64,000 nt of DNA from Halanaeroarchaeum sp. HSR-CO (GTDB lineage: Archaea; Halobacteriota; Halobacteria; Halobacteriales; Halobacteriaceae), in NCBI RefSeq assembly GCF_024972755.1, contig NZ_CP087724.1, forward strand, positions 62,001 to 126,000. The letters are read 5' to 3'. Shown here in pieces: positions 2,357 through 44,908 of the stretch. The position numbers and the translations under genes were made by a program. Positions within the stretch are counted from its first letter, which is position 1. Every line of letters begins with the position of its first letter. Below the pieces are notes generated by a model, which was not told the DNA's origin, ran no database searches, and saw only the letters and a list, made by a program, of their open reading frames with translations.

Positions 2357-3493
2357 ATGGCAAGAGATACCACGCGTCGGGATATCCTGAAAGGGGCGTC
2401 GACTCTCGGTGTGATTTCACTCGCTGGCTGTTCGAGTAACGGAGATGGCGGAGATGGCGGAGATGGCGGCGACGGCGGAGATGGCGGCGATGGTGGCGAT
2501 GGTGGCGATGGTGGCGATGGTGGCGATGGCGGATCGCAAACGTACGACCTGAATATCGCGGCGACTGGCAGCGGTTCATCGACTCAGCAGGCTGCACAGG
2601 CGATGGCCCGGGCTGCGAGCCAGCACAGCGACAAGGTGTCGATCAGTGTGCAGAACACCGACGGCTGGACCGCGAACCTCTACGAGTACGACGCCGGAAA
2701 CTTCCAGTTCCTCGGCGTCGACAACAACTCTCTCGCGAAAGCGATGGCCGATCGGCCACCGTTCGACGAGGAGCCGGTCGACGAGCTCCCGATGCAGGGC
2801 TTCATCTTCACGAGTCTCGAGATCCACATGATCGCCATGGACGGATCGGGACTCGAATCGACGGATGACCTCCTGGACGGCGGCTACACGATCTACCCGA
2901 TTCAGCCGGGCTACGGGACCCGTCTGCTGACCGAAGAGGTCCTCAAAGAAGCAGGCTACTGGGAGGGCAACGACATACTCAACGTTGACACTGGCGACAT
3001 CTCGGGTGCCGTCGCGGAAGGTCGCGCCGACGCCCTGGCTGTGTACGGTGCCAACGGGGTCAACCTCAGTGGCTGGGTCCAGGAAGTCGACGTGCGCAGC
3101 GATGGCAAACTGTACCTCCTCGAACCCGGCGACAACCTGCTGGAGGCCATCGAGAACGTCGCCGGCGCGACCCGGAAGGACTACGACGAGTACCCCTACG
3201 AATGGGAACAGGACGTGACGGACGTCACCGATACCACCACTGCATGGGTGCTGGCCGGACAGTGGGTGTTCGGCCCCGGAATTCCGGCGGACGCCACTCA
3301 TGAAGTGGCCCGCATCGCCTCGGAGCATCACGAGGCGCTTCGTGAAGCCGACCCGACGGCCCTCGACCATTCGGGCGTCGAGTCGATGACGCAGGCCGTG
3401 ATCCCCGACCTCGAGATTCACCCGGGTATCGCCAACTACTGGAAGGAGAACGACGCCTGGAACGACGAGTGGATGGTCGGCGAAACCAACTAG
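2357..3493 (+). CDS. TAXI family TRAP transporter solute-binding subunit
   Basis: A 378-residue lipoprotein. The N-terminus has a Tat motif (RRDILKG) followed by a lipobox ending at SLAGC, so the mature protein should be lipid-anchored outside the membrane. An extreme Gly/Asp linker (repeated GGD, residues about 30-58) precedes the binding domain. The domain begins TYDLNIAATGSGSSTQQAAQ and ends with the TAXI-type helix HPGIANYWKEN. TAXI proteins deliver a small organic acid, often a dicarboxylate or amino acid, to a TRAP permease; the fused permease follows 140 bases downstream. The ligand cannot be read from sequence. A TATA-like TTTATT about 31 bases upstream marks the operon promoter. Confidence 0.92.
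   Translation: MARDTTRRDILKGASTLGVISLAGCSSNGDGGDGGDGGDGGDGGDGGDGGDGGDGGDGGSQTYDLNIAATGSGSSTQQAAQAMARAASQHSDKVSISVQNTDGWTANLYEYDAGNFQFLGVDNNSLAKAMADRPPFDEEPVDELPMQGFIFTSLEIHMIAMDGSGLESTDDLLDGGYTIYPIQPGYGTRLLTEEVLKEAGYWEGNDILNVDTGDISGAVAEGRADALAVYGANGVNLSGWVQEVDVRSDGKLYLLEPGDNLLEAIENVAGATRKDYDEYPYEWEQDVTDVTDTTTAWVLAGQWVFGPGIPADATHEVARIASEHHEALREADPTALDHSGVESMTQAVIPDLEIHPGIANYWKENDAWNDEWMVGETN
2441..2532 (+). repeat. 9-bp tandem repeats coding a Gly/Asp linker
   Basis: About ten imperfect copies of a GGCGATGGT-like 9-mer in the linker of the TAXI lipoprotein. Each unit codes Gly-Gly-Asp. Slippage would change linker length without shifting the frame. Confidence 0.85.
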
Positions 3494-3633
3494 TCCTGAC
3501 CCGCCGATCCGATTAACATATTTGTTCGTCCGAAAATAACCAAGTAATATCATGTGGCGCAATCCGACCGATGGACGACCGATAATTCGTGCAGCGAGTG
3601 AGAGTACCGCCGGACCGAGGACGGTGATCTAAC

Positions 3634-5763
3634 GTGAGCCACGGCGAACCGCCGGCCTCGAAGGAAGACGTCCCGGACGTCACGCAAGGCTTCGACAGGG
3701 AAGGTCCGTGGGACGCCGAATTCGTCTCGATGCGCAACGTCCTCATTGCCCTCTCCGTCGTGTTCTGGGGGATCGTTATCTACTATGCGTACTCCCAGAT
3801 GATGCCTCGCGCACAGTATGGGGTCCTCTTTTTGGGGGGTATTCTCCTCCTCTATATCTGGCACCAGTTGATGGAAATGTCCGGCGGCGGGAACGGGTCC
3901 CTTCTCGCGGATCTGAAAGCAGCGTACGCACCGGGCAATCGTCTCACCGCGACCTTGTTGACGCTCTCGGCCATCGACGTGCTCGCGACGACCATCTACA
4001 TGGCGACGAACTTTCACGCGCTGTACGTCACTCGGTCGGGTCGTGCGCTCGAGTTCGAACTCTACGGGGCAGCGGTGTTCACGCTGGTCATCATCTACCT
4101 GACCTACCGGTCGTTCGGGTTCACGTTCCTGGCCATCGTGTTACTCGGGATCGTCTACGGCCGCTACGGGATGTACTTCCCCGGCGCGTTCCAGCACGGT
4201 GGTATCGGCTGGGGCCGGTTGATGCGCATTCTCGTGGTCAGCGTCGACGGGTTCTTCGGGTTCCTGACCCGTCTGGTGGCCGCGTGGATCGCCCTGTTCT
4301 TACTGTTCGCCGGCTTCCTCAGGTCCTATGGGGCGTTCGATCTCATCATGCGCCTCGCGTTCCGGGCCGCCGGCTACATCGACTCCGGGATCGCCCAGAC
4401 CGCCGTCCTCTCCTCGGCCGTCATCGGATCGGTGAACGGGAGCCAGACCGCTAACGCCAGCATGACCGGTTCGTTCACCATCCCGTTGATGAACCGGTAC
4501 GGGATCAAATCAGAGACGTCGGCTGGCATCGAAGCGGTGGCGTCGACCTCCGGACAGGTTCTGCCGCCGGTCATGGGCGCTGGCGCGTTCATCATGGCCA
4601 ACCTCATCACGGGGATCACCTACGTCGACGTCATCATGGCGGGTCTGATTCCGGCCGCGGTCCTCGTCGTGACGATCTTCATGGGCGTCCACTACGTCTC
4701 CGTTCCGCAACTCGGCAAGGTGGACCTGGACGAGCTCATCCAGGAGCCGATGCCGAGGTCCGAGTTCTACACGGAAGTCGTCAAGTACGGGATTCCGATG
4801 GGGGTCCTGATCTATCAGCTCGGGATCGCCCAGGTCACGGTCATGACCGCGGCGTTGCACACCTCGCTGTCGATGATGCTCACCGCGACAGGCATCCCGC
4901 TGCTCCAGGCCGGTGCCGGACTCAGCGACGAGACGGTCGTCGAAGCCGGCAAACGCGGCGTCTGGGAGACGCTCAACGGTGCCCGCGTCGGCGTCATCGT
5001 CCTGGCGCCGGTCGCCATCATCCTCGCCGCGATCAACGGCGTCGTCGACATCCTCACGGCGACCGGCGTGCCGGGTTACATCGCGTTGACCCTCATGGAG
5101 CTCTCCGGCGGTCGGCTCTGGCTCGCCTCCCTGCTCGCCGTGATCATCTCGATCCTCCTCGGACTGGGAATGCCGACGACGGCGGCGTACACCATCGTCG
5201 CGTTGCTCATCGCGCCGACGATGATCAACCAGTTCCTGCTGCCGGAGCTGGCGGGACACTTCTTCGTGTTCTACGCCGCGATTCTCGCGGGGTTGACGCC
5301 ACCAATTGCTACTACGATCGCGGTCGCCGCAGGCATATCGGGAGGTGACTTCTGGGGCTCCGCGGTCGAAGGGATCAAGATATCCGCGCCGCTGTTCGTC
5401 CTCCCGTTCGCCTTCGTCTACCACCCGGAGATCGTCTCGGCGACGTTCACCGGCCCGGTGTTGCTCTCCGGGGCGCTGGCCCTCGCGGGCGGGATCGCGA
5501 TCATCCACGGGATCAACTACCCGATGGGATTCGGCATGGTGATCAACGTTCCAGCGAGAATCGTCTTCTCGGTACTGGGACTGATCACCATGGTCCATCC
5601 CACGCGAACCTGGCAGCTTGGGGCGCTCGTCCTCATCGTCGTGCTGTACGTCCTGCAGGCGTTCGTCGGGAAACCGCAGCCGCTCTCCTCGCTGCCAGGG
5701 CCGACGATATTCCCGAAGAAGAAACAGAAAGAACCCGACGCGGTCGAAGCGGACCCGAAGTAG
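3634..5763 (+). CDS. TRAP transporter fused permease (4TM + 12TM)
   Basis: A 709-residue membrane protein with a GTG start, within the range of fused DctQ-DctM TRAP permeases. The N-terminal third holds the small-subunit-like helices. The C-terminal two thirds carry DctM signatures such as GSVNGSQTANASMTG, a VMGAGAFIMA segment and GLGMPTTAAYTIVA, the re-entrant transport loops. It uses an ion gradient, presumably Na+, to take up the ligand captured by the upstream TAXI lipoprotein. The tail is a short charged cytoplasmic extension (KKKQKEPDAVEADPK). The long complementary frame here is a shadow caused by GC-rich codons. Confidence 0.93.
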   Translation: MSHGEPPASKEDVPDVTQGFDREGPWDAEFVSMRNVLIALSVVFWGIVIYYAYSQMMPRAQYGVLFLGGILLLYIWHQLMEMSGGGNGSLLADLKAAYAPGNRLTATLLTLSAIDVLATTIYMATNFHALYVTRSGRALEFELYGAAVFTLVIIYLTYRSFGFTFLAIVLLGIVYGRYGMYFPGAFQHGGIGWGRLMRILVVSVDGFFGFLTRLVAAWIALFLLFAGFLRSYGAFDLIMRLAFRAAGYIDSGIAQTAVLSSAVIGSVNGSQTANASMTGSFTIPLMNRYGIKSETSAGIEAVASTSGQVLPPVMGAGAFIMANLITGITYVDVIMAGLIPAAVLVVTIFMGVHYVSVPQLGKVDLDELIQEPMPRSEFYTEVVKYGIPMGVLIYQLGIAQVTVMTAALHTSLSMMLTATGIPLLQAGAGLSDETVVEAGKRGVWETLNGARVGVIVLAPVAIILAAINGVVDILTATGVPGYIALTLMELSGGRLWLASLLAVIISILLGLGMPTTAAYTIVALLIAPTMINQFLLPELAGHFFVFYAAILAGLTPPIATTIAVAAGISGGDFWGSAVEGIKISAPLFVLPFAFVYHPEIVSATFTGPVLLSGALALAGGIAIIHGINYPMGFGMVINVPARIVFSVLGLITMVHPTRTWQLGALVLIVVLYVLQAFVGKPQPLSSLPGPTIFPKKKQKEPDAVEADPK

Positions 5764-29565: not shown

Positions 29566-29958
29566 TCACACGCCGAAGAGGGCCTCCATCGCGTACGACA
29601 CGACGAACATCGTCAGGCTCGCCAGATAGAGCCGTGCCCAGTTCGCGTATCGCTCCCGGGGCCGGAGCGGATACCAGGCAGCCGGAGGCACGCGCCGGAC
29701 GACCGCCTGGACGCTGGTCTCCTCCCGGTCGAGTCCCTCGCGCTCCAGGTCCTCGGGCGACTTCGGCCACGCCAACAGCGTCGCGTACCCCAGCGCGACG
29801 ATGCCCACGAGAAACAGGCCGAATTTCACGCCCCAGAATCCCAGCCCGAAGAGCACGCTGATCGGCAGGGTCACCGCAGCGGCGAGGATGGTGAGTCCCA
29901 CGGCGTACTGGATGGCGTCGACGACGCGGGCGCCCCGGGTCGGGGAGGCGTCGCTCAT
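29566..29958 (-). CDS. Small membrane protein linked to the dipeptide ABC operon
   Basis: 130 residues with three predicted helices: [39 protein letters not shown], and near the end [19 protein letters not shown]. Between them is a charged cytoplasmic loop ([16 protein letters not shown]). Its ATG overlaps the stop of the ABC ATPase gene by four bases, so it is the last gene of the operon 35103-29566. It may be a haloarchaeal accessory protein rather than a transporter component. I do not recognise a family with known function. Confidence 0.7.
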
Positions 29959-31301
29959 TCGCCGCTTCGGAACGACGGCAGCATATCGTCGCCGACGAAC
30001 TGGTCCGGCTCTTCCTCGTCGCGTCGGTGGCGGTGACAGAAGCTCTCGCGCCCCGTCTCGCTGACGCGGTGGTACTCCGGTCGTTCCATGTCACAGACGC
30101 TCCCGAACTCTTCGCGGAGGAGTTCTCTGGCGGCCGCCGCGTCGTCGTCTGCCATGTACCTCGCCGCCTCGTCGACGTGCTCCTGGACCGGCCGTGGCAC
30201 CTCGAGGGCGCCGAAGACGTCCTCGAGGATCTCCTCGATACCGGTCCGCTTCGTCTCGAGGCCGAGGTACTCTTTCGCGATCTCGCGCAGCGACCGGTCC
30301 GCTTGCGCCCGTTCGCGAACGATCTCTCGGTAGGCCTCGATGGCGTCCCAGACGTCGTCGTCCACGTCCTCGTATCGGTCCGGTCGGAGTTTCATCGGAC
30401 ACCGGGTCGTGAACGGACAACCGGCGGGTGGGTCCCGGGGACTCGGTGGCGTTCCTCGGAGCGTGATGCCGCGCGTGTCGACCGTCGGGTCGGGTTCGGG
30501 GATGGCCGACAGCAACGAGATCGTATAGGGGTTCTTCGGGTTCCGGAAGAGCTCCTCGGTCGGCCCGATCTCCATGATGTGGCCCAGGTACATCACCGCC
30601 ACGCGGTCGCAGATGTGCCGAACGACCGAGAGGTCGTGTGCGATGAACAGGTACGTCAGGTCGAACTCGTCCTGGAGGTCCTCGAGGAGGTTGAGAACCT
30701 GTGCCTGGACGCTCACGTCCAGGGCACTCACCGGTTCGTCGAGCACGACGAACTCCGGCTCGAGGGCCAGTGCCCGGGCGATGCCGATGCGCTGGCGCTG
30801 GCCGCCGGAGAACTGGTGGGGATAGCGGTAGTAGTGCTCTTCCTGTAGGCCGACGGTCGAGAGCAACTCGCGAACCCGTTCTCGTCGTTCCGAGGGTGTC
30901 TTCCAGTCGTGGACGTCGAGCGGTTCGCGGACGATCTCGCCGACCGTCATCCGGTCGTTCAGACTGGATTGTGGGTCCTGGAAGACCATCTGGGCGTTGC
31001 GCTTCCAGTCGACGAGTTCGTCGCCCGAGAGCCTGGTCACGTCCGTCCCCTCGAAAAGCACCTCGCCCTCGGTCGCCGTCTCGAGCTGGATGAGGGTCCG
31101 CCCGAGCGTCGTCTTCCCACAGCCGGATTCGCCCACGAGACCGAGCGTCTCCCCGCGCCGAATGTCGAAGTTCACCCCGTCGACGGCCTTGACGGGCTGT
31201 TTCGCGAACGGGCCGACGCCACCGGATTCGTAGTACTTCTTCAGGTCGTTGACCTCGACGATGGCGTCGCTGTGTTGGTCCGTCCGGTCCTGTAAGCTCA
31301 C
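29955..31301 (-). CDS. Dipeptide/oligopeptide ABC transporter ATP-binding protein (DppF/OppF type)
   Basis: 448 residues, longer than the typical 330. The ATPase core has Walker [12 protein letters not shown], signature [13 protein letters not shown], Walker [12 protein letters not shown] and switch IAHD. The Opp/Dpp C-terminal Cys motif that follows ([13 protein letters not shown]) is expected to hold an Fe-S cluster in this family, with a further Cys in GSVCDM. A long haloarchaeal extension of about 100 residues (helical, acidic, ending with more Cys/His) is unusual. It pairs with the DppD-type ATPase, whose stop it overlaps by four bases. Confidence 0.92.
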
Positions 31302-32581
31302 GCACCATCACCTCCGTTCTCGGCGAGCGACTGGCGCGCTCGCTGTCGCTGCTCGGTCCGTGCCCGATGCATCTCGAGTGCACCCGACCGGTCCCGGTCG
31401 CTCGGGTAGAGCAAACAGGCCGCGGTGTGGTCGGCCTCGCTCTCGGAGACGTCGACCGGCATCGGGTGGACCGATTCGCACGCGTCGAAGGCCTTCGGAC
31501 AGCGCGGTTCGAACCGGCAGTCCGTCGGCTCTTCGGTCGGCGTCGGCACGTCGCCCTCGATGGTCGAGAGCCGTTCGGCCCCGACCTGCCGCCCAGGTAT
31601 GCTGTCGAGAAGCCCTCGCGTGTACGGGTGGCGTGGGTTCTCGAAGAGTTCGACGACGGGGCCGCTCTCGACGATCTCGCCGGCGTACATGACGTTCACC
31701 CGGTCGGAGATCTGGGCGATGACGCCCATGTCGTGGGTAATGAACATGATTCCCAGGTCGCGTTCGGCCTGGAGGTCGCGGAGGAGGTCGAGTATCTGGG
31801 CCTGGATGGTCACGTCGAGGGCCGTCGTCGGTTCGTCGGCGATGATGAGTTCCGGATCGCAGGCGAGCGCCATCGCGATGACCGCCCGCTGGCGCATCCC
31901 CCCGGAGAACTGGTGGGGATACTCCTCGAGTCGTCGGGGGGCGTCCGGGATGCCGACGGCCTCGAGGAGCGAGATGGCCTCTTCGGTGGCCGGATTGCCC
32001 GTAAGTCCCTGGTGGAGTTCGAGCGCCTCCTTGATCTGGTTGCCGACCGTGTAGACTGGGTTGAGACTGGTGAGCGGGTCCTGGAAGATCATCGCGATGC
32101 CGCCACCCCGGATCCGGCGGAGCGCCTCGTCGCTCGCCCTCGCGAGGTCGATGTAGCCCGCCGTGATGGCCTCCGATCCGTTTCGGCTCGGTTCCCGTTC
32201 CTCGACGAAGACGAAGTCGTCATCATTCGCCAGATACTGGATCGCCTCTCGGCGGGTCTCGATGTCGTCCTCTCGGCCGACGACTTCGTCTGCGTCCGTC
32301 ACGTCGACCGTATAGCTCGAGAACTGGTCGGCGTACGTCCGGACCGTCTCGACGTCGCGGTAGCGGATGCTACTCGAGGGGTGGATCCGTCCGGGCGACT
32401 TGATGAGGCCCATGATGGACCGGGCGGTGACGCTCTTCCCGGATCCCGACTCGCCGACGATGCCGACCGTCTCGCCACGGTCGATGTCGAAACTCACGCC
32501 GTCGACCGCGTGGATGGTCTCCTTGTCGGTGTAGAAGGTGGTCCGGAGGTCGGCGAGCTCGAGGAGGACGTCCTCGCCCAT
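31298..32581 (-). CDS. Dipeptide/oligopeptide ABC transporter ATP-binding protein (DppD/OppD type)
   Basis: 427 residues. Walker [14 protein letters not shown] near residue 42, signature [15 protein letters not shown], Walker [14 protein letters not shown] and ITHDMGV are intact. The C-terminal motif [14 protein letters not shown], with a later ACLLYP, is the expected Opp/Dpp Cys cluster. Between Walker A and the signature is an insertion of about 75 residues ([20 protein letters not shown]...), which I recall in haloarchaeal DppD proteins. It forms the heterodimeric motor with the DppF-type protein. The start overlaps the DppC-like stop by one base. Confidence 0.92.
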
Positions 32582-34032
32582 CAGGCACCACCCCCGACGG
32601 CGGCCTCGTCGGCCGTTCCACCCTCGCTCTGCGGATCGATGGCGTCTCTGATCCCGTCACCGAGGGCGTTGAGCCCGGTCACGACGAGCGTGATCATGAG
32701 CCCCGGGATAAGCGCGATGTGCCAGGAGGCGCTGGCGACGTAGGGCTGTCCGAGATTGATAGCCCGCCCCCACTCCGGGGTGGGTGGCGTGATGCCGATG
32801 CCCAGGTAGGACAGTCCCGCGACACTGACGATGATACCACCGAGGCTCATCGACCCGTAGATGAGCAGGTAGCCGACGATGTACGGGAGCATGTGCTTTT
32901 GCATGATCGTCCGCGGGCGCTGCCCGAAGCTCTTGGCCGCGTCGACCCAGTCCTCCTCGGAGACCTGGAAGGACGGCCCACGGACCGCCCGCCAGAGAAA
33001 CGGCCAGTAGACCACGGAGAACAACAGGACGAGGAGGACACCCCCGTTGTAGAGCCCGGCGATCCAGTGATCGCTGAACAGCACGGCGATCAGGATGGCG
33101 AGCATCAGGACCGGGATGGCCTGGACCGAATCGCTCACGACCACGGTCACGAGATCGGCCAGTCCCTTGTAGTACGCCGTCGCGAGTGCCAGTCCCGCCG
33201 CGATGAAGCCCGAGATCACGATCGAACTCAGGGCGATGAACATCGAGAGCCGCGAGCCGTACATCATGAACGTAAAGAGATCCTTCCCTGACGGCAAGGT
33301 TCCGAACGGATGGAAGCGCTCGAAGTCGTCGTAGGTCAGTGGCCCGACGTTGCTACTGCCGCCTTTCGAACCGGAGCCGATGTTGGCCTCCCCGGCGGTG
33401 ATCTCCACCACCTCCTGGTTCTCGGCGTCCCAGGTCTCGATGGTATTGCTGTACGGGTCCGTGATGTTCTGTTCGAGCGTCGTCGGGCCCAGCGTGGGGG
33501 CGAACACCGCCATGATCACGAACAGGATAACGACGATGAGGCCGAACTTGCCCCAGGAGTGGCGACTGAACCGGTCGAACTGGTCGTCGCGGGGCGTCCA
33601 GTCGGCGTACCGGTAGTGGGTTCGGTAGACCCGATAGCCACGCCAGAGCCACCAGATGAAGACGAAGCCGTACGCCGTTGTCAGGCTGGCACGGATGGCC
33701 CACGAGACGCCGGGCGAGAGGCCCATGAACGTCCCGACCCACTGGGACCCATTGTGATAGCCCTGGTTGGGGATCAGTTCCCGGGACAGGAGGGTCGGAA
33801 TCTCGCTCGCCGCCGCCATGGCGGATTCGGCGAGCGCGACGGCGGGTTCGCCGGGGAGGCCACCGAGCACGATGGACAGCCCCTCGAAGAACATGTGGAC
33901 GAGGGCACCGGCTTCGACGACCAATAACGCACCCATCACGCCGGCCCAGATTGCGGCAGGGCGGGGGTTGGCGGCGATCCTGTCTCGGAGCGGTTCCTCG
34001 TCTTCCGTGTCGCGGGGGGAGAGCTCACTCAT
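32581..34032 (-). CDS. Dipeptide-type ABC transporter permease (DppC type)
   Basis: 483 residues, long for this family (usually near 300). The standard BPD_transp_1 core is in the C-terminal half: SRLSMFIALSSIVISGFIAAG, VQAIPVLMLAILIAVL, the EAA loop reading VDAAKSFGQRPRTIMQKHMLP, and GISYLG-like GLSYLGIGITPPTPEWGRAI. The N-terminal half adds two extra helices and a soluble loop, which I recall for several haloarchaeal DppC-like proteins. A NIGSGSKGGSSNVGP loop lies outside the core. It forms the channel with the DppB-type protein, whose stop lies six bases upstream. Confidence 0.9.
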   Translation of the reverse strand: MSELSPRDTEDEEPLRDRIAANPRPAAIWAGVMGALLVVEAGALVHMFFEGLSIVLGGLPGEPAVALAESAMAAASEIPTLLSRELIPNQGYHNGSQWVGTFMGLSPGVSWAIRASLTTAYGFVFIWWLWRGYRVYRTHYRYADWTPRDDQFDRFSRHSWGKFGLIVVILFVIMAVFAPTLGPTTLEQNITDPYSNTIETWDAENQEVVEITAGEANIGSGSKGGSSNVGPLTYDDFERFHPFGTLPSGKDLFTFMMYGSRLSMFIALSSIVISGFIAAGLALATAYYKGLADLVTVVVSDSVQAIPVLMLAILIAVLFSDHWIAGLYNGGVLLVLLFSVVYWPFLWRAVRGPSFQVSEEDWVDAAKSFGQRPRTIMQKHMLPYIVGYLLIYGSMSLGGIIVSVAGLSYLGIGITPPTPEWGRAINLGQPYVASASWHIALIPGLMITLVVTGLNALGDGIRDAIDPQSEGGTADEAAVGGGA

Positions 34033-34038
34033 GGATAC

Positions 34039-35103
34039 TCACTCCGATTCGTACCCCACTCTCGGATCGATCAGCGTGTAGAGCAGGTCCTGTGTGATGT
34101 TGATCGCGACCAGCAGGAGGATGAAGATGTACATCAGCGTCCCGACCAGTGGGAGGTCGCCTTGCATGATGGCCTGGAAGAACAGGTAACCCAGGCCGTT
34201 GATCGCGAAGACGTACTCGACCAGGACGGACCCGCCGAGCAATAAGAAGGCCTCCCCGGTGATGATGGGGACGAGGGGGATCAACGCGTTCCGGAAGACG
34301 TGCTTCCAGACGATGACGCTGTTTTTCAGCCCTTTGGCCCGGGCGGTCTCCACGTAGTTCGAGTTGATGGTCTCGAGGACGGCTGTTCTGCCGATCCGCA
34401 TCTCGTTACCCATCGACGCCGACCCGAGGACGATGGAGGCCGGAAGGGTCTGTTTGAGCGCCGCGAGGAACGACCCGTTGCCGTCCGTGTTGTCGATCCA
34501 GAAGGCGTGTGGGTCCCGAATGGCGTCGAGTGGCTGTGCCAGGAAATCCAGGGTCGGCGGGGTGACGATGTTCGTCTGGACGATAAAGGAGGCCCACTCC
34601 CACCCGAACAGTTGTTTCGACTGCGAGAGAACGCTCACCAGGATGACGGCGAGCCAGAAGTTGGGCATCGCGCGCCAGACGATACCGCCGAACGACGCGA
34701 TGTAATCGTTCCAGGTATTGGGGTTGAGTCCGGCGTAAAACCCCAGCGGGATTCCGATGAACAGCGGGATCAGGACGGCCCAGAAGCCGAGCCAGATGGT
34801 CCGGGGCGCGTAGATGGTCAGCATGTCGACCGCGGTAGTGCCAGGGGAAATGACCCAGGAGCGGCCGAGGTCGAAGGTAAACATGTTGATCATGAAGTCG
34901 ATATACTGGCCCCAGAACGGTTGGTTCAACCCGAGGTTCTGCTCGATCCGCCGAGCGGCGTCGGGCGTGTATTGCTGGCCGAGGATCGCTGACACCGGGT
35001 CGATGGGCCCCATATAGATCATCAGGAACGTGAGCGTCGTCCCGAAGACGATGACGGGGACCGAGAGCGCGAGCCGGCGTCCGAAGTAACTCCACCTACT
35101 CAT
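34039..35103 (-). CDS. Dipeptide-type ABC transporter permease (DppB type)
   Basis: 354 residues, six predicted helices. It starts MSRWSYFGRRLALSVPVIVF, followed by a GPIDPVSAILG segment as in DppB. The EAA loop reads ETARAKGLKNSVIVWKHVFRNA, and the C-terminus is LLYTLIDPRVGYESE, close to the DppB ending. Compared with DppB it has a roughly 50-residue insertion between helices (FGWEWASFIVQTNIVTPPTLDF...). It is the first gene of the permease block after a 167-base AT-richer gap from the binding protein gene, where TTATATC may be an internal promoter. Confidence 0.92.
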   Translation of the reverse strand: MSRWSYFGRRLALSVPVIVFGTTLTFLMIYMGPIDPVSAILGQQYTPDAARRIEQNLGLNQPFWGQYIDFMINMFTFDLGRSWVISPGTTAVDMLTIYAPRTIWLGFWAVLIPLFIGIPLGFYAGLNPNTWNDYIASFGGIVWRAMPNFWLAVILVSVLSQSKQLFGWEWASFIVQTNIVTPPTLDFLAQPLDAIRDPHAFWIDNTDGNGSFLAALKQTLPASIVLGSASMGNEMRIGRTAVLETINSNYVETARAKGLKNSVIVWKHVFRNALIPLVPIITGEAFLLLGGSVLVEYVFAINGLGYLFFQAIMQGDLPLVGTLMYIFILLLVAINITQDLLYTLIDPRVGYESE

Positions 35104-35270: not shown

Positions 35271-37109
35271 TTACTGTTCGACCGTGACAGTTTCGGTCTC
35301 GTGACTGACGCCGAGCGTGTCGAGCAGGAAGTACGACCGACGGGAGTTCTCCGAGCCCGCGAGCCGCTCCAGGGAGTAGACGTAGTCCTGGGCGGTGACG
35401 TCGCTGCCGTCGTGGAACGTGGCGTCCTCCTCCAGTTGGAAGGTGTAGGTCAGGAAGTCGTCGGAGACGGAGTAGTCCACCGCACCGAGGTTGGTGACGG
35501 TGGTCGTCCCGTCCTGGTAATTCGTCAGCGCGTCGAAGACCTGCGAGATAATCTCGCCGCCAGCGGTCGACGTCGACGCGATGGGGTCGATGGTGGTGAT
35601 GGTCCCCGTCAGGATACGGTTGAGGGTGTTGTCGTCTTTCTGGTCGGTCGTCGTGACCTTGTTGTACTTCTGGCGACTAATACCCATCCCACCGAAGGGA
35701 TTGTACTCGATCGTATCGTACCAGAAGTACTCGTCGAGTCGGTGGTAGAGGTTGATGAAGCCGACGTCCTCCCAGTTCGCCTCCTCCATGAGGACGGCTG
35801 CCTCGCTACGCTGGGCTTTGGCGTCGTCCGTCGGTGCTTTGTTGTCGTCGATGACGTCGTACGCGTCCTCGGCATCCTGGGCAGCGTCGCCGTTCTCCGA
35901 ATTCCAGTTGATGTACGACACCGGGGCATCCATACTCGTCTGGGTCTGTGGCGGATCGAGGAGCCCCAGGAAGTTGTCGGGTGCCGGGTAGTCCGCGATC
36001 CACCCGAGCGTGTACGCCTCCAGGTTGCCGTTCCGGCCGCGCTGGAGTAGCGTCGAGAAATCCGCCTGCTCGATCTGCATGTCGATGTGGGCGCTGGCGA
36101 GCTGGTCACGCAGGATCTGGGCCATCTCGAGCCAGGTGTCGGACTGGTACTGGGTCCACTGGACCTCGTACGGGTCGTCGGCGCTGTATCCCGCCTCCTC
36201 CATGACCTGGCGGGCTTCGGCGACTCTCGATTCGTTGTACCCGTAGGGGTAGTTCTCTTCGGCGTGGCTGTTGTACTCCCCGGCACCGCCCGGGTAGATC
36301 GACGGCGGCGTGAGGTGATACGCCGGCACGCCACGGCCCTTGAAGACCTCGTTGACCAGGAGTTCCTGGTTCGCCGCGTAGGCGAACGCCTGGCGGACGG
36401 GTTTGGGCACCTCGTTCATGTTGAAGCCGATGTAGAAGGTGTTGATCGTCGGCACGCCAACGTAGTTCAGCGTGTCCCCGTTCCGCACCGGTCCGTACGT
36501 GCCGAGCGATCGACCCTCGGCGTCCGTCTCGTCGACGGAGACGAGGTCCGGGTCGTACTGGCTGGTCGGGATGGTGAACAGGTCCGCGTTCCGGTTCATC
36601 GCGTAGTTGAACCGGGCGGAGTCCCGCTCGAGGACCTGCCAGTGAATGCTGTCGAGTGCAGCCGCTTCGCCGTAGTAGTCGTCGTAGGCAGAGACCGAGG
36701 CTTCGGTCCCCTGGGTCCAGTTATCGAACTCGAACGGACCGGACCCGATGGGCGAGGAGGTCGCGAACTCCTCGTAGCTCATCTCGCCGTCGTAGCCCTC
36801 GACGTCGCCGACGACGCCCTCGGGCACCGCGGAGAACGAGGAGTACGCCAGCATCTGGAGCGACGCGTGGAACGGCGCGTCGATCTGGATCTCGAGTTCG
36901 TATTCGCCGACGGCTTCGACGGCGATACTACCTGGTTTGTAGACCTCCTGTTCGACGGTCGTCGTTTCTTCGGTCGTGGTCCCTGCTTCGGTGGTCGTAT
37001 CGTCGGTACCGTCACCGTTACCGGAACAGCCAGCAAGCGCGACGGCCCCCGCGGCACCGCCGGTGGCGCCGAGGAATCGTCGACGGGACAATTTGTTATC
37101 GGATGACAT
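35271..37109 (-). CDS. ABC transporter substrate-binding lipoprotein, SBP family 5, circularly permuted
   Basis: 612 residues with a Tat/lipobox signal (SRRRFLGATGG then VALAGC, Cys28) and a Thr/Glu linker to about residue 50. What follows is out of order. Residues 55-490 match the middle and C-terminal parts of DppA-type proteins: GSIAVEAVGEYELEIQIDAPF, PIGSGPFEFDNW, VRQAFAYAANQELLV, ending FGGMGISRQKYNKV. Residues 493-612 are the part that normally comes first: DNTLNRILTGTITTIDPIAS, FLTYTFQLEEDATFHDG and VTAQDYVYSLERLAGS. The C-terminus TVTVEQ would join directly onto the start of the first block (VEQEVYKPG). Both join points carry the plus-strand 9-mer CTGTTCGAC (35274-35282 and 36948-36956). 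It delivers substrate, probably peptides, to the permease encoded next. Confidence 0.93.
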   Translation of the reverse strand: MSSDNKLSRRRFLGATGGAAGAVALAGCSGNGDGTDDTTTEAGTTTEETTTVEQEVYKPGSIAVEAVGEYELEIQIDAPFHASLQMLAYSSFSAVPEGVVGDVEGYDGEMSYEEFATSSPIGSGPFEFDNWTQGTEASVSAYDDYYGEAAALDSIHWQVLERDSARFNYAMNRNADLFTIPTSQYDPDLVSVDETDAEGRSLGTYGPVRNGDTLNYVGVPTINTFYIGFNMNEVPKPVRQAFAYAANQELLVNEVFKGRGVPAYHLTPPSIYPGGAGEYNSHAEENYPYGYNESRVAEARQVMEEAGYSADDPYEVQWTQYQSDTWLEMAQILRDQLASAHIDMQIEQADFSTLLQRGRNGNLEAYTLGWIADYPAPDNFLGLLDPPQTQTSMDAPVSYINWNSENGDAAQDAEDAYDVIDDNKAPTDDAKAQRSEAAVLMEEANWEDVGFINLYHRLDEYFWYDTIEYNPFGGMGISRQKYNKVTTTDQKDDNTLNRILTGTITTIDPIASTSTAGGEIISQVFDALTNYQDGTTTVTNLGAVDYSVSDDFLTYTFQLEEDATFHDGSDVTAQDYVYSLERLAGSENSRRSYFLLDTLGVSHETETVTVEQ

Positions 37110-38283: not shown

Positions 38284-41200
38284 ATGCGACCGGACGACGA
38301 GGCATACTTCGAGACCATCGAATCCCGCCTCGACGAGGCCTTCGAGGTGGCCAGCGAGGCCAAACGTCGCGGCGACGACCCGAAACCCGAGGTCGAGATC
38401 CCGGTCGCGAAGGACATGGCCGACCGCGTCGAGAACATCCTCGGCATCGATGGGGTCGCCGAACGCGTCCGCGAACTGGAGGGCCAGATGTCCCGCGAGG
38501 AGGCGGCACTCGCCCTCGTCGACGACTTCGTCGAGGGAACCGTCGGCGATTACGATACGAGTGCCGGGAAGGTCGAAGGTGCCGTCCGGACCGCCGTCGC
38601 GCTGCTGACCGAGGGGGTCGTCGCGGCCCCCATCGAGGGCATCGACCGCGTCGAACTCAACCAGAACGACGACGGCACCGAGTACATCTCGGTCTACTAC
38701 GCCGGCCCCATCCGCTCCGCCGGCGGGACGGCCCAGGCACTCTCGGTCCTCGCTGCCGACTACGCCCGAGCGCTGCTGGGCATCGACGAGTACAAACCAC
38801 GGGACTCGGAGATCAAACGCTACGCCGAGGAGGTGGCCCTCTACGACCAGGAAACCGGGCTCCAGTACTCGCCGAAGGACGCGGAGACGGAGTTCATCGC
38901 CAGCAATACCCCGATCTGCCTGGACGGAGAGGCCACGGGCCAGGAGGAGGTGTCGGGGTACCGCGACCTCGAGCGCGTCGATACCAACAGCCCCCGTGGC
39001 GGGATGTGCCTGGTGCTCGCCGAGGGTATCGCGCTCAAGGCGCCGAAGATCCAGCGGTACACCCGCAATCTCGACGAGGTCGACTGGCCGTGGCTCCAGG
39101 ACCTCATCGACGGGACGATCACCGAGGAGACGAACGGCGACGGCGATGACGAAGAGCTGAACGCCGACGCGACGGAGCCGGCGGATTCCCAGACGCCCGC
39201 CAGTGGCCCTCCGCGCGTGGACGAGTCCTGGAAGTACCTCCGCGATCTCATCGCCGGCCGTCCGGTCTTCGGCCATCCGAGTGCCGAGGGCGGATTCCGA
39301 CTGCGATACGGCCGTGCCAGAAACCACGGTTTCGCGACCGCCGGCGTCCATCCGGCCACGATGCACCTGGTCGACGACTTCCTCGCGACCGGCACGCAGA
39401 TCAAGACCGAACGACCAGGCAAGGCAGCCGGCGTCGTGCCGGTGGACTCCATCGAGGGGCCGACCGTCAAACTCGCGAACGGCGACGTCCGGCGGATCGA
39501 CGACCCGGAAGAAGCCCTGGAGATCCGCAACGGCGTCGAGGCCATCCTCGACCTCGGCGAGTACCTGGTGAACTACGGGGAGTTCGTCGAGAACAACCAC
39601 CCGCTCGCGCCCGCCTCGTACTCGGTCGAGTGGTGGGTCCAGGAGCTCGAGGCCGCCGGCGCCAATGTACAAGCCCTCCGCGATTCGCCTTACGTCGACC
39701 TCGCGAACCCCGACGCCGACCAGGCGCTGAACTGGGCGCTGGACCACGACGTCCCGCTGCATCCCGCCTACACCTACCTCTGGCACGACCTCGACGTCGA
39801 CCGGTTCGAGACCCTCGCCACGGCCGTCGCGGATGGCGCTATCGAAGATGGGGACCTGCACATTCCCCGCGAGGAACCCGTCCGTGAGGCCCTGGAGGTG
39901 CTCCTCGTGGAGCACAGCCAGGAGGATGCGGTACTGGTTGTGGGGGACTGGGTGCCCCTGGTCACTACGCTCGGCATCGACGAAGACCTGGAGCGCGATT
40001 GGTCGGCGGCGGACCTATCCGCAGAGGCTCTGGGCTGGGACAACGCCATGAAGGCGGTGAACGAGGTCGCCCCCTTTACCGTCCGCGAACGCGCTCCCAC
40101 TCGCATTGGGAACCGGATGGGACGACCCGAGAAATCCGAGTCGAGAGACCTCAGCCCGGCGGTCCACACCCTCTTCCCCATCGGCGAGGCCGGCGGTAAC
40201 CAGCGCAACGTGAGCGACGCGGCGACCCACACCGAGGAGATGAACGACCGCCCCGGCCGGATTACGGTCCAGCTCGGCGTTCGGGAGTGCCGCGACTGCG
40301 GCGAACACACGTACAAGGCCCGCTGTCCGGACTGTGACGCTCGCACCGACCCCTTCTACGAGTGCCGTGACTGCGGCATCGAGGCCACGCCGGACGAATC
40401 CGGTCGGGTCGAGTGCCCACGCTGCGAGCGGGAGGTGGACAACCTGGAACCGCAGACGGTCGACCTCAACAGCGAGTACCACGAAGCCCTGAAGGCGGTC
40501 GGCGAGCGCGAGAACGCCTTCGACATCCTGAAGGGAGTCAAGGGGTTGACATCCTCGGAGAAGGTTCCCGAACCCATCGAGAAGGGCGTGCTCCGGGCGA
40601 AACACGGCGTCACGACGTTCAAAGACGGCACGGTCCGCTACGACATGACCGACCTCCCCGTGACCGCCGTTCGCCCCGAAGAACTCGACGTCACCGTCGG
40701 CCAGTTCCGCGAACTCGGCTACGAGACCGATATCCACGGCGATCCGCTCGAACATCCCGACCAGCTGGTCGAACTCCGCGTCCAGGACGTCGTGCTCTCC
40801 GACGGTGCCGCCGAACACATGCTCAAGACCGCGGCCTTCGTCGACGAGTTGCTCGACGACTACTACGACCTCGAGCCTTTCTACGAACTCGAGGATCGCG
40901 ACGACCTCGTCGGCGAACTCGTGTTCGGGATGGCCCCGCACACGAGCGCGGCAGTGGTCGGCAGAGTTATCGGATTTACGAGTGCTGCAGTCGGATACGC
41001 ACATCCGTATTTTCACGCGAGTAAGCGGCGTAACTGCGATGGGGATGAAGATTGTGTCATGTTATTGATGGACGGCCTGCTGAACTTCTCGAAGTCCTTC
41101 CTGCCAGACAAGCGCGGCGGCCGGATGGACGCGCCGCTGGTCATGTCCTCGCGCATCGATCCCGCGGAGATCGACGACGAGGCGCACAACATGGACATCG

Positions 41201-41781
41201 TCGACCAGTACCCCCGCGAGTTCTACGAGGCGACCCGCGAGATGGCGCCGCCGGAGTCGGTGGACATCACCATCGCGGAGGAGTACGTCGGAACCGACGA
41301 CGAGTACCAGGGCTTCCGGTTCACCCACGATACCACCGACATCGCGCTCGGGCCGGACCTCTCGGCGTACAAGACCCTCGGGTCGATGATGGACAAGATG
41401 GACGCACAACTCGAACTCGCCCGCAAACTCCGGGCCGTCGACGAGACGGACGTCGCAGAACGGGTCATCGAGTACCACTTCCTCCCGGATCTCATCGGGA
41501 ATTTGCGGGCGTTCTCCCGGCAGGAGACTCGCTGTCTGTCCTGTGGGAAGAAATTCCGCCGGGTCCCGCTCACGGGGGAGTGCCGTGAGTGCGGCGGGGA
41601 CGTCAACCTGACAGTCCACCAGGGCTCGGTCACGAAGTACATGGACACGGCCCTGGAGGTGGCCGAGGAGTACGGCGCGCGCGAGTACACGAAACAGCGG
41701 TTGCGCATCCTCGAGCGCTCTATCGAGAGCATCTTCCAGAACGACAAGAACAAACAGTCGGGGATAGCGGACTTCATGTAG
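38284..41781 (+). CDS. polC: DNA polymerase D large subunit (DP2)
   Basis: 1165 residues, with no intein. The start MRPDDEAYFETIESRLDEAFE is typical of archaeal DP2. Landmarks are AGPIRSAGGTAQALSVLAADY near residue 140, a CRDCG/CPDCD zinc module near residues 675-720, and the catalytic NCDGDED at residues 917-923 (Asp919 and Asp921 match the essential pair of Pyrococcus PolD). A C-terminal zinc ribbon (CLSCGKKF, CRECGG) and the ending QSGIADFM, a PIP-like PCNA contact, complete it. PolD is the main replicative polymerase with small subunit DP1, not in this window. Codons 894-928 (40963-41067) use rare AT-rich codons unlike the rest of the gene. The gene begins immediately after the PPC stop. 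Confidence 0.97.
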   Translation: MRPDDEAYFETIESRLDEAFEVASEAKRRGDDPKPEVEIPVAKDMADRVENILGIDGVAERVRELEGQMSREEAALALVDDFVEGTVGDYDTSAGKVEGAVRTAVALLTEGVVAAPIEGIDRVELNQNDDGTEYISVYYAGPIRSAGGTAQALSVLAADYARALLGIDEYKPRDSEIKRYAEEVALYDQETGLQYSPKDAETEFIASNTPICLDGEATGQEEVSGYRDLERVDTNSPRGGMCLVLAEGIALKAPKIQRYTRNLDEVDWPWLQDLIDGTITEETNGDGDDEELNADATEPADSQTPASGPPRVDESWKYLRDLIAGRPVFGHPSAEGGFRLRYGRARNHGFATAGVHPATMHLVDDFLATGTQIKTERPGKAAGVVPVDSIEGPTVKLANGDVRRIDDPEEALEIRNGVEAILDLGEYLVNYGEFVENNHPLAPASYSVEWWVQELEAAGANVQALRDSPYVDLANPDADQALNWALDHDVPLHPAYTYLWHDLDVDRFETLATAVADGAIEDGDLHIPREEPVREALEVLLVEHSQEDAVLVVGDWVPLVTTLGIDEDLERDWSAADLSAEALGWDNAMKAVNEVAPFTVRERAPTRIGNRMGRPEKSESRDLSPAVHTLFPIGEAGGNQRNVSDAATHTEEMNDRPGRITVQLGVRECRDCGEHTYKARCPDCDARTDPFYECRDCGIEATPDESGRVECPRCEREVDNLEPQTVDLNSEYHEALKAVGERENAFDILKGVKGLTSSEKVPEPIEKGVLRAKHGVTTFKDGTVRYDMTDLPVTAVRPEELDVTVGQFRELGYETDIHGDPLEHPDQLVELRVQDVVLSDGAAEHMLKTAAFVDELLDDYYDLEPFYELEDRDDLVGELVFGMAPHTSAAVVGRVIGFTSAAVGYAHPYFHASKRRNCDGDEDCVMLLMDGLLNFSKSFLPDKRGGRMDAPLVMSSRIDPAEIDDEAHNMDIVDQYPREFYEATREMAPPESVDITIAEEYVGTDDEYQGFRFTHDTTDIALGPDLSAYKTLGSMMDKMDAQLELARKLRAVDETDVAERVIEYHFLPDLIGNLRAFSRQETRCLSCGKKFRRVPLTGECRECGGDVNLTVHQGSVTKYMDTALEVAEEYGAREYTKQRLRILERSIESIFQNDKNKQSGIADFM

Positions 41782-42345: not shown

Positions 42346-42573
42346 ATGCCTGATGAAGTGACGAACGAGGCCGACGGGTTCCCCCTCTCCGAGACGGCGG
42401 AACCGGATCGTGAATTCGACCAGGAGCTCGGGAGACAGATGGGCGAAGACGCCCAGAAGGTGGCGGACGGCGAGATGACGGAAGCGGCGTTTTTCGAGAA
42501 GTACAAAGAGGCGGTGCGCGAGGAGTTCGGCGAAGACGCACATCTCGCCGGCCAGGAGGTCGCCGATGAGTGA
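42346..42573 (+). CDS. Small acidic protein leading the molybdopterin oxidoreductase operon
   Basis: 75 residues from the ATG (MPDEVTNEADGFPLSE), with a possible in-frame GTG nine bases earlier. It has a helical, charged body (QELGRQMGEDAQKVADGEMT, FEKYKEAVREEFGED) and no Cys. Similar short segments occur, as I recall, at the start of haloarchaeal molybdopterin oxidoreductase operons. They may help assembly or maturation of the large subunit, a role otherwise unfilled here because no TorD-type chaperone is present. Its end overlaps the next start by eight bases, so the two are translationally coupled. Confidence 0.75.
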   Translation: MPDEVTNEADGFPLSETAEPDREFDQELGRQMGEDAQKVADGEMTEAAFFEKYKEAVREEFGEDAHLAGQEVADE

Positions 42574-44908
42574 CGCCTCCGAATCCGCCGACGACTTCGG
42601 ACTGACTCGTCGGACGCTGCTGAAAGCTGGTGGGGCGAGTGCCGGGGCGGCAGCTCTCGGTGGCTGTCTGTCCTCTCCCGGCCAGACCGATAGCTCGGCT
42701 GGGGGCACGGCGAAAGCCTACGGGAACTGCTGGCAGTGTCACAAACTCTGTGGCATGGAGGTCACCCTGGAGAACGATGGCGACGAACAGGTCGCCACCG
42801 AAATCCACGGGATCGACGGCCATCCCAGGGGGAGTGCTGGTGAGGGGACGAAAGGGACACTGTGTCCAAAAGGACTCTCACAGCTCGAGAAGGCCTACTC
42901 TCCGAAGCGCATCAAACAGCCATACGTGCGCAAGGACGGCGAGCTCGAGGCCGTCGAGTGGGAGGAGGCCTTCCAGTACGCCGCCGACCGACTTGCGGAA
43001 TTCAAGGCCGAACACGGTGCGGAGAGTCTGATCGAATTCCACGGCTGGGGAACGACCGGGACCTTCTCTACTCTCTTCGGGAACCTCTATGGATGTCCGA
43101 ACTCTGTCCCCCACCCCACTCCGACCTGTTTCGGCTCGATGGCGGTTACTGGCACGCTCATGGGGCTCGGCGGTGGCAACATCCGGTGGGTCGATTACCC
43201 CAACACCAAATACGTTCTCGTCTGGGGTCGGGACCCGCTAGACACCTTCGCCGGCCAGTGGGAAGCCAAACAGCTTCTCCAGGCCAAAGAACGCGGTGCG
43301 ACGATCGTGACGATCGATCCGGTGTACACGGAGACCGCGAAGAAATCCGATAAGTGGCTCCCGATCAAGCCCCGGACCGACGGCGCACTGGCGCTGGCAA
43401 TCGCGAACGTGATCATCGAAGAGGAGCTTTACGACGAGGAATTCGTCGAGAATTACACCCACGGCTTCGACGCCTACCGGGACGCCGTCGAAGGCAAGAC
43501 GCCCGAGTGGGCCGCGGAGAAGACGGGCCTCGACGCCGAGGACATTCGCGACATCGCGCTCGGCTTCGGCCGCGCGGCGCCGAACGCGGGGATCACCTCC
43601 TGGACCGGCCTCGGACAGAGCGCCGACCACCAGAAGGGTGCCCAGAACCTCGTGGCACTGACGGGTCTCGTCGGCAACATCGACCGGCCGGGCGGGCAGC
43701 GCTGGTTCGCGAGCGCTAGTCTCTCGAACCCCTTCAAGGTCGGCTGTGAGGCCGAACTGCCGGACAACGCTGCGGAGAACCGGTGTTACCTGACCGATCC
43801 CGACGCCGGGTACGCCTCGCTGACCAAAAAGCCGGTCCAGAACAACGTCCCGCGGATGGTCGAGGATGGCGTTATCAACGGGATGGTCTACTACTATCGG
43901 AATCCGGTCACCGACGGGGCTACCCAGGAGTGGCTCGGCACCGAAGAGAAGACGGGTGCGCTCGAGGAGATGGACCTCGTTATTGGCATCGACGCCTTCT
44001 GGAGTGAGACGACTCGGAACGCCGACGTGGTCTTCCCGGAGTCGTCACAGCTGGAGAAACCGATGCTCGGCTCTGGCGGGTACGGTGCCTATAACACCAA
44101 GACCTGGGTGACCGGCTCCGGAGCCGCGATCGATCCACAGTGGAACACCAAACCCGGCTTCGACATCATCCAGGGCCTCGGCCGAGCGATGGGGTACGAC
44201 GAGTTCTTCGTCTGGGACGACAAGGAGCAGTACATCAACGACCAGCTCTCCGAGATCGACCTCACACTGGAGGAGCTCGAAGCCGAGGACACTTACGTTC
44301 TCACCGGAGACTTCGGTTACGAGAAGTGGAAAGACGGCGGCTTCGCCCAGGGCGCCGACACGTTCTGGTTCGACCTCGACAAGAAGCTCACCGGTGCCTA
44401 CGAGAAACTGAGCGAACAGGTTGGCGCCGAGATCGGGACCGGTCCCCAGTGGGTGCCCCCTGGAACGATCAGCGACGAACTCACCGAGGAGTACCCCCTC
44501 GAGATGCTCGACGCGCGAACCGTCGAGTTCTCTCACGGCGGCGATCAGGCCCTGTCGAAGCCCCTCGAACAGCTCGCCGAAACCTTCGATCTCGAACACG
44601 AGGATTACCGCGGCAACTACCTCGTGATGCACACCGACGACGCCGCCGAGCGTGACATCGAGAACGGCGATATGGTCACGATCAGTTCCTCGCACGGTGA
44701 GGCGGAGCTGATGGCCTTCGTGACGGAAGGGATCCGTCCCGGCGCCGTCAGCGTCGAACCCTACGGGTTCGGCCGCGGCTCGATACAGCCCGACGAGGAG
44801 GGCGCGAACAACATGATACTGAACAGGCCAGATCAGATCGATCCGATCTCCGGCGAAATCGACAGGCACATCGCTATCTCGGTGACTCCCGCCGGGGGTG
44901 AGCACTGA
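42566..44908 (+). CDS. Molybdopterin-dependent oxidoreductase catalytic subunit (polysulfide/thiosulfate reductase type)
   Basis: 780 residues. A Tat signal (LTRRTLLKAGGAS ending AAALGGC) directs the folded enzyme outside; the GGC also forms a lipobox. The 4Fe-4S site is CWQCHKLC plus LCPKG. The metal ligand is probably the Cys in TPTCFGSMA near residue 190, which points to the PsrA/PhsA/TtrA/ArrA branch and away from the Ser-ligated DMSO reductases. VLVWGRDPLDTF and EFSHGGDQ segments bind the two pterin guanine dinucleotides, and GYGAYNTKTWVTG is near the active site. It probably reduces a sulfur compound such as polysulfide, thiosulfate or tetrathionate. Genes for the Fe-S and membrane subunits follow directly. 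Confidence 0.92.
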   Translation: MSDASESADDFGLTRRTLLKAGGASAGAAALGGCLSSPGQTDSSAGGTAKAYGNCWQCHKLCGMEVTLENDGDEQVATEIHGIDGHPRGSAGEGTKGTLCPKGLSQLEKAYSPKRIKQPYVRKDGELEAVEWEEAFQYAADRLAEFKAEHGAESLIEFHGWGTTGTFSTLFGNLYGCPNSVPHPTPTCFGSMAVTGTLMGLGGGNIRWVDYPNTKYVLVWGRDPLDTFAGQWEAKQLLQAKERGATIVTIDPVYTETAKKSDKWLPIKPRTDGALALAIANVIIEEELYDEEFVENYTHGFDAYRDAVEGKTPEWAAEKTGLDAEDIRDIALGFGRAAPNAGITSWTGLGQSADHQKGAQNLVALTGLVGNIDRPGGQRWFASASLSNPFKVGCEAELPDNAAENRCYLTDPDAGYASLTKKPVQNNVPRMVEDGVINGMVYYYRNPVTDGATQEWLGTEEKTGALEEMDLVIGIDAFWSETTRNADVVFPESSQLEKPMLGSGGYGAYNTKTWVTGSGAAIDPQWNTKPGFDIIQGLGRAMGYDEFFVWDDKEQYINDQLSEIDLTLEELEAEDTYVLTGDFGYEKWKDGGFAQGADTFWFDLDKKLTGAYEKLSEQVGAEIGTGPQWVPPGTISDELTEEYPLEMLDARTVEFSHGGDQALSKPLEQLAETFDLEHEDYRGNYLVMHTDDAAERDIENGDMVTISSSHGEAELMAFVTEGIRPGAVSVEPYGFGRGSIQPDEEGANNMILNRPDQIDPISGEIDRHIAISVTPAGGEH

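Follow-up and report, generated by a model that had tools for sequence, protein, structure and literature searches.

A natural circular permutant among haloarchaeal SBP_bac_5 lipoproteins, and repeated permutation in its subfamily

Within the window, a 64,000-nucleotide stretch of the Halanaeroarchaeum sp. HSR-CO genome, the gene at 35271..37109 (minus strand) encodes a 612-residue lipoprotein of the SBP_bac_5 family of substrate-binding proteins (SBPs; cluster C, DppA/OppA-type), assigned from its open reading frame (ORF), Pfam, HMM and doubled-reference alignment. We are highly confident that this protein is a natural circular permutant, that it is the Tat-exported, lipid-anchored SBP of a dipeptide/oligopeptide-type ABC importer, and that its permutation is one of several that arose independently. 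A natural circular permutation had been proposed in the initial annotation; Pfam, the HMM order and the doubled-reference alignment agree on it.

The protein opens with a signal peptide (residues 1-28; 37026..37109, minus strand), recognised by sequence pattern from the twin-arginine motif SRRRFL (about 37071-37088) and the lipobox LAGC with Cys28; by pattern it fits a haloarchaeal Tat lipoprotein and is predicted to be exported. The Tat pathway exports folded proteins, so export should depend little on how the chain after the signal is ordered. A Thr/Asp/Glu-rich linker follows (residues 29-54; 36948..37025, minus strand), leading directly into residues 55-490 (35640..36947, minus strand), which by HMM and structural alignment correspond to the central and C-terminal portions of an SBP_bac_5 protein in normal order and superpose on DppA about 97-507. 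The segment that opens normal SBP_bac_5 proteins is C-terminal here (residues 493-612; 35274..35633, minus strand), as read from PDB matches, HMM and doubled-reference alignment. The new internal join, KVTTTDQKD (35634..35660, minus strand), fuses the old C-terminus to an apparent linker end, judged by comparison with a normal-order Halospeciosus sequence (L005). The ORF spans 612 codons with zero internal stops, and the signal, lipobox and frame are intact, as first described. The subfamily has a single copy in this genome, other matches scoring below 24 bits.

PF00496 (SBP_bac_5) matches the protein in two stretches, with 213.7 bits against a gathering cut-off of 32.4; the best stretch pairs residues 58-386 with profile positions 62-362, and the start of the profile is absent from it. 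An HMM built from 23 normal-order haloarchaeal relatives reads the ORF, in a numbering that counts 11 residues before the Met, as 59-501 on model positions 141-581 and then 499-618 on 26-144. The same exchange is seen against a solved chain, PDB 8upi, where residues 502-586 pair with 21-105 and residues 64-448 with 135-483, so that the DppA-type opening segment lies at the C-terminus, where it had been placed from the sequence. In the standard circular-permutation test, alignment to a doubled normal relative, the protein gave a single alignment across the join (q30-578; 745 bits, 62.6% identity) against 615 bits for the single-copy relative, and normal-order controls had zero gain from the doubled reference. 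The earlier suggestion that joining end to start gives a natural continuation is realised in one unbroken alignment. Both parts are present once, swapped, and continuous once the old ends are joined; this sequence evidence makes the SBP_bac_5 lipoprotein a genuine circular permutant. The ancestral order is the normal one, as the outgroup and the nearest sisters are all in normal order.

AlphaFold2 modelled the mature protein in its native, permuted order with a pLDDT of 95.4 and a pTM of 0.91, using 99 relatives of which 98 were fragments cut to fit that order. The pLDDT falls below 50 only at the start of the linker, and block means around the new join are 85-97. A sequential structural alignment (VIA-align) sets residues 28-461 of the predicted model (mature numbering) on residues 97-507 of DppA (1dpp), with a Z of 25.9 and an rmsd of 3.4 over 379 residues; the first 96 residues of DppA are left unpartnered in it because the equivalent stretch is the end of the model. 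The comparison with DppA and haloarchaeal relatives that the initial annotation had suggested returned the swapped order both structurally and by HMM. The predicted model has the cluster C fold of DppA and OppA, and the protein matches SBP_bac_5 and cluster C structures rather than the TpMglB-2-like (cluster Bc) fold. Among the structure matches listed, no solved chain is collinear with the permuted order, and a viral structure library gave nothing significant. A member of break class B (described below), modelled by AlphaFold2 with 24 close sequences, gave a poor model with a pLDDT of 60. For the window protein, the model speaks for compatibility of the permuted order with the SBP fold and not for folding in vivo; in the cell the protein would be expected to fold and to support transport.

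The gene heads an intact SBP-permease-permease-ATPase-ATPase operon whose gene order is that of the normal-order relatives, and its product is the sole SBP of this complete operon. All on the minus strand, the further genes encode ABC permease 1 (DppB-type, 354 aa; 34039..35103), ABC permease 2 (DppC-type, 483 aa; 32581..34032), a DppD-type ABC ATPase (427 aa; 31298..32581) and a DppF-type ABC ATPase (448 aa; 29955..31301). The best-supported view is that the protein would be an ordinary Dpp/Opp-type SBP, still binding ligand and feeding the permeases and hung from a different membrane attachment site. The first assessment, that this is probably a working permuted protein, is supported. Elsewhere in the window, on the plus strand, we noted by eye a DNA polymerase D large subunit look-alike (38284-41781, 1165 aa) and a Tat-type molybdopterin oxidoreductase look-alike (42566-44908), both seemingly ordinary.

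A search of 392 genomes of the order with the join region, the end fused to the start, recovered 71 full-length matches of the window subfamily in 70 of the 392 haloarchaeal genomes (~18%), with a clear gap, E 2e-60 to 4e-54, separating permuted from normal-order matches. The HMM distinguishes three break points among the 71 genes: A near model position 142 (2 genes, those of the window and of G018), B near 375 (27 genes) and C near 496 (42 genes). The order of class C rests on the HMM, the doubled-reference test of two members having left the join unbridged in one alignment. By pattern, a Tat motif and lipobox are present in 2/2 of the A, 27/27 of the B and 40/42 of the C permutants, and permeases lie directly downstream at nearly all permuted loci with enough flanking DNA (exceptions L123 and L144). 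Just one other genome of the sampled order shares the window's break A, namely G018, from another genus of the family; its gene represents a separate event by the AU test (p = 3.6e-5). The closest homologues of the window protein are in normal order, so the circumstance that might have undone the original proposal, the same order in most of them, does not hold. Its remark that permutation is unusual in the family is contradicted by these 71 genes and by a further group, D (described below), in 90 of 382 genomes. A fused profile at E <= 1e-30 found no permuted window-subfamily forms outside the order among 295 genomes from the phylum.

Two loci were noted in passing. At L144 (G211:C1:2517600-2526200; ORF 2764-5688, plus strand, 975 aa) a single ORF joins a protein-kinase-like N-terminal region and an apparent transmembrane stretch, both judged by eye, to a class C permuted SBP; it is possibly a ligand-sensing kinase. 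The genome with the second type A permutant also holds, at L152 (G018:C1:328000-337000; ORF 4350-4904, minus strand), a subfamily SBP in normal order that ends prematurely after 185 residues and looks like a decaying gene.

For the SBP tree (IQ-TREE, 60 proteins) every sequence was rotated to normal order. The window protein is sister to a normal-order protein of Halospeciosus flavus (support 99/99), and the branch lengths of the two, 0.29 and 0.34, are similar; there is therefore no pseudogene-like acceleration in the window protein. The A-type protein of G018 is placed apart from it, and classes B and C each form one clade (both 100/100); L141, a C-type gene of G306, joins Halomarina-type proteins of normal order (100/98). 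By AU test, a single clade is rejected for the A pair (p 3.6e-5), for class C together with L141 (p 7e-108) and for the permuted forms as a whole (p 3e-54). A quick tree of the downstream permease, a gene that is unrearranged, unites the window permease with that of Halospeciosus (SH-aLRT 84) and L141 with the normal-order Halomarina operons (99), recovers C as a clade (100), and sets B outside a group of normal-order, C and A operons (97). Every segment of L141 and of the window gene has normal-order nearest neighbours, so chimeras do not account for their placements; the segments of the window gene are mostly nearest to Halospeciosus, as is the permease, and a chimera of two genes was rejected as its source. 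The SBP tree makes B and C sisters (93/82) and the permease tree does not, which sets the count of independent permutation origins in the haloarchaeal subfamily, as judged from these sequences, at at least four, probably five. Breaks A and C have two origins each and B has one. By its placement among normal-order relatives the window event is an origin of its own, and it was seen in one genome only.

An event confined to one genome could mean that a normal-order gene was scrambled in assembly. We regard such an artefact as scarcely credible: the frame, signal, lipobox and stop are intact, the break falls in a loop that other permutants use and recurs in another genus of the family, and the remaining 70 permuted subfamily genes come from independent genomes, of which many are assembled into one or few contigs. 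It is also very improbable that we are looking at a decaying or non-functional gene that merely resembles a permutant. Genes of this kind do decay, as the truncated normal-order SBP of G018 indicates, but here the 612-codon frame is open, GC3 is 0.83-0.91 along the whole binding domain (0.91 in the moved segment, like the remaining domain), the branch is no longer than that of the normal sister, and the complete operon has no other SBP. Inheritance of a single ancient permutation by all permuted members, with later shuffling, we hold to be quite unlikely. The sister relationship of B and C in the SBP tree would allow those two a shared origin, but the AU tests reject each of the joint clades, B and C are apart in the permease tree, where L141 sits with Halomarina operons of normal order, the break points differ, and the nearest sisters of both the window gene and L141 are in normal order. 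We favour a natural permutant, probably functional, with an origin of its own.

Permuted forms also occur beyond the subfamily. A lipoprotein of Subdoligranulum variabile (OY725879.1, L179) has break A, matching OppA 8are 138-522 and then 16-132; the ORF of this Clostridial locus (109488-116936; ORF about 2836-4638, plus strand) has ABC ATPase genes just upstream. In a Nitratireductor protein (L181) the break, D, falls after the EAGY helix, with residues 202-522 equivalent to DppA 1-340 and residues 50-173 to 5isu 359-477. For this protein and seven relatives, the alignment to a doubled Fusobacterium SBP is unbroken and in every case extends from 339-350 to 819. One-piece group D relatives come from Rhizobiales, Rhodobacterales, Roseomonas and many haloarchaeal plasmids, and the group is present in 90/382 haloarchaeal genomes (24%) and 39/93 genera, with the order inferred from collinear full-length matches. 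Its members are annotated merely as ABC transporter substrate-binding protein. The presence of this large group in both haloarchaea and Alphaproteobacteria points to a possible transfer across domains of life. Judged by how distant they are and where they are broken, group D and the Clostridial case would represent further origins. Plasmid matches to the fused region from Ensifer, Rhizobium SSA_523, Phyllobacterium, Deinococcus and K84 proved to be normal-order genes, some in tandem arrays.

How the permutation probably arose is suggested in part by the gene itself. Among the internal loops of normal-order members, the loop at A is the most variable in length, that at B the second and that at C the fourth; with A and B in the most length-variable loops, new ends arise where the fold already tolerates insertions. 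Sequence of the broken loop is partly left at both ends of the window protein, as ..TVTVEQ before the stop and as TTTVEQEVYKPG. At the new join stands TTTDQKDD, a stretch resembling a linker; the normal-order Halospeciosus protein has the comparable TTTKEPEN ahead of the same position. The 9-mer GTCGAACAG was confirmed at both join points, on the minus strand, with one copy on the N-terminal side newly created by break A (36948-36956) and the other immediately before the stop (35274-35282). The gene holds 32 repeated 9-mers against 20 +/- 6 in Markov shuffles, so the shared 9-mer is unremarkable by itself; what is telling is that VEQ is read from each copy, in one and the same frame, and that the copies sit at the two free ends. 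The initial annotation had taken it as the trace of a tandem duplication. That route fits the loop remnants but is not proven by them, and the 9-mer, weak evidence when taken alone, is not upheld as proof of it.

Permutation by duplication is the classical model of natural circular permutation (PMC3320104). Judging from the sequence remnants, the most likely route here is a tandem duplication or fusion followed by trimming that would have left remnants of the linker and of the broken loop. The export and anchor module (signal, Cys and linker) would have been kept at the front and the first ~120 binding-domain residues shifted to the back. The normal bilobed shape would be kept because the former termini are linked to each other and the new ones open a surface loop of variable length, that of break A. 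Binding and docking would thereby be retained, with the lipid tether attached elsewhere on the protein than at the usual N-terminus. The loci retrieved included no tandem-fused intermediate. SBP genes in tandem occur at L038 and in Phyllobacterium, where a plasmid carries four tandem SBP_bac_5 genes (L184; NZ_CP088275.1 98602-104267); an array of this kind could be a source of permuted genes.

A bolder extension is that permutations were selected for moving the tether, thereby changing the seat on the transporter, or for sparing strain on the cleft. We regard it as rather doubtful. In every haloarchaeal class the chain still begins with signal, Cys and linker, and the attachment is moved; almost all haloarchaeal SBPs are of the Tat-lipobox type (PMC2841640), and the same idea has been raised for the permuted, tethered TpMglB-2 (PMC4990184). 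However, the breaks track the most indel-tolerant loops, so that neutral tolerance explains them as well, and some Alphaproteobacterial group D signals show no obvious lipobox on inspection by eye (L181, L190), which means that tethering cannot be a full explanation. A benefit from moving the lipid tether may be supposed. On the most far-reaching view, which we hold to be less likely than not, selection has repeatedly favoured permutation as a way for tethered SBP_bac_5 proteins to evolve: with the export and anchor module kept at the front, cuts in a few indel-tolerant loops would re-site the tether among the lobes and tune docking or uptake.

Natural circular permutation, and a permuted SBP of another fold class, are already known. 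The nearest precedent is TpMglB-2 (Tp0684), a glucose-binding lipoprotein of Treponema pallidum that is likewise a natural permutation in a tethered ABC SBP and keeps ligand binding (PMC4990184). It has a Type I/cluster B sugar-binding fold with one described permutation, whereas the present cases belong to cluster C and involve four break points with several origins. Other families with naturally permuted orders, explained by duplication, are the DNA methyltransferases and swaposins (PMC3320104), but they are unrelated proteins, and here the export/anchor module stays while the domain behind it is permuted. With the cluster C SBPs DppA, OppA, AppA and NikA the window protein shares PF00496, the predicted fold (Z about 26 to OppA/DppA) and an operon of two permeases and two ATPases; it differs in that what corresponds to DppA's ~96 opening residues is C-terminal. 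The open literature searched, which leaves out most subscription journals, held no description of permuted DppA/OppA-type proteins or of repeated cluster C permutation. The interest of the finding lies in the recurrence and in the convergence of the break points. Natural circular permutations are usually reported as single protein pairs, and SBP_bac_5 is among the commonest transporter binding-protein families; here a single, common family shows several permutations, with separate lineages broken at the same loops. For many proteins annotated as ABC transporter substrate-binding proteins, standard annotation hides the order of the chain. Some of the events are recent enough to have normal-order sisters at 60-65% identity, and such matched natural pairs could be used to test the origin of permutations, the reasons for the choice of certain loops and the importance, if any, of the anchor's position.
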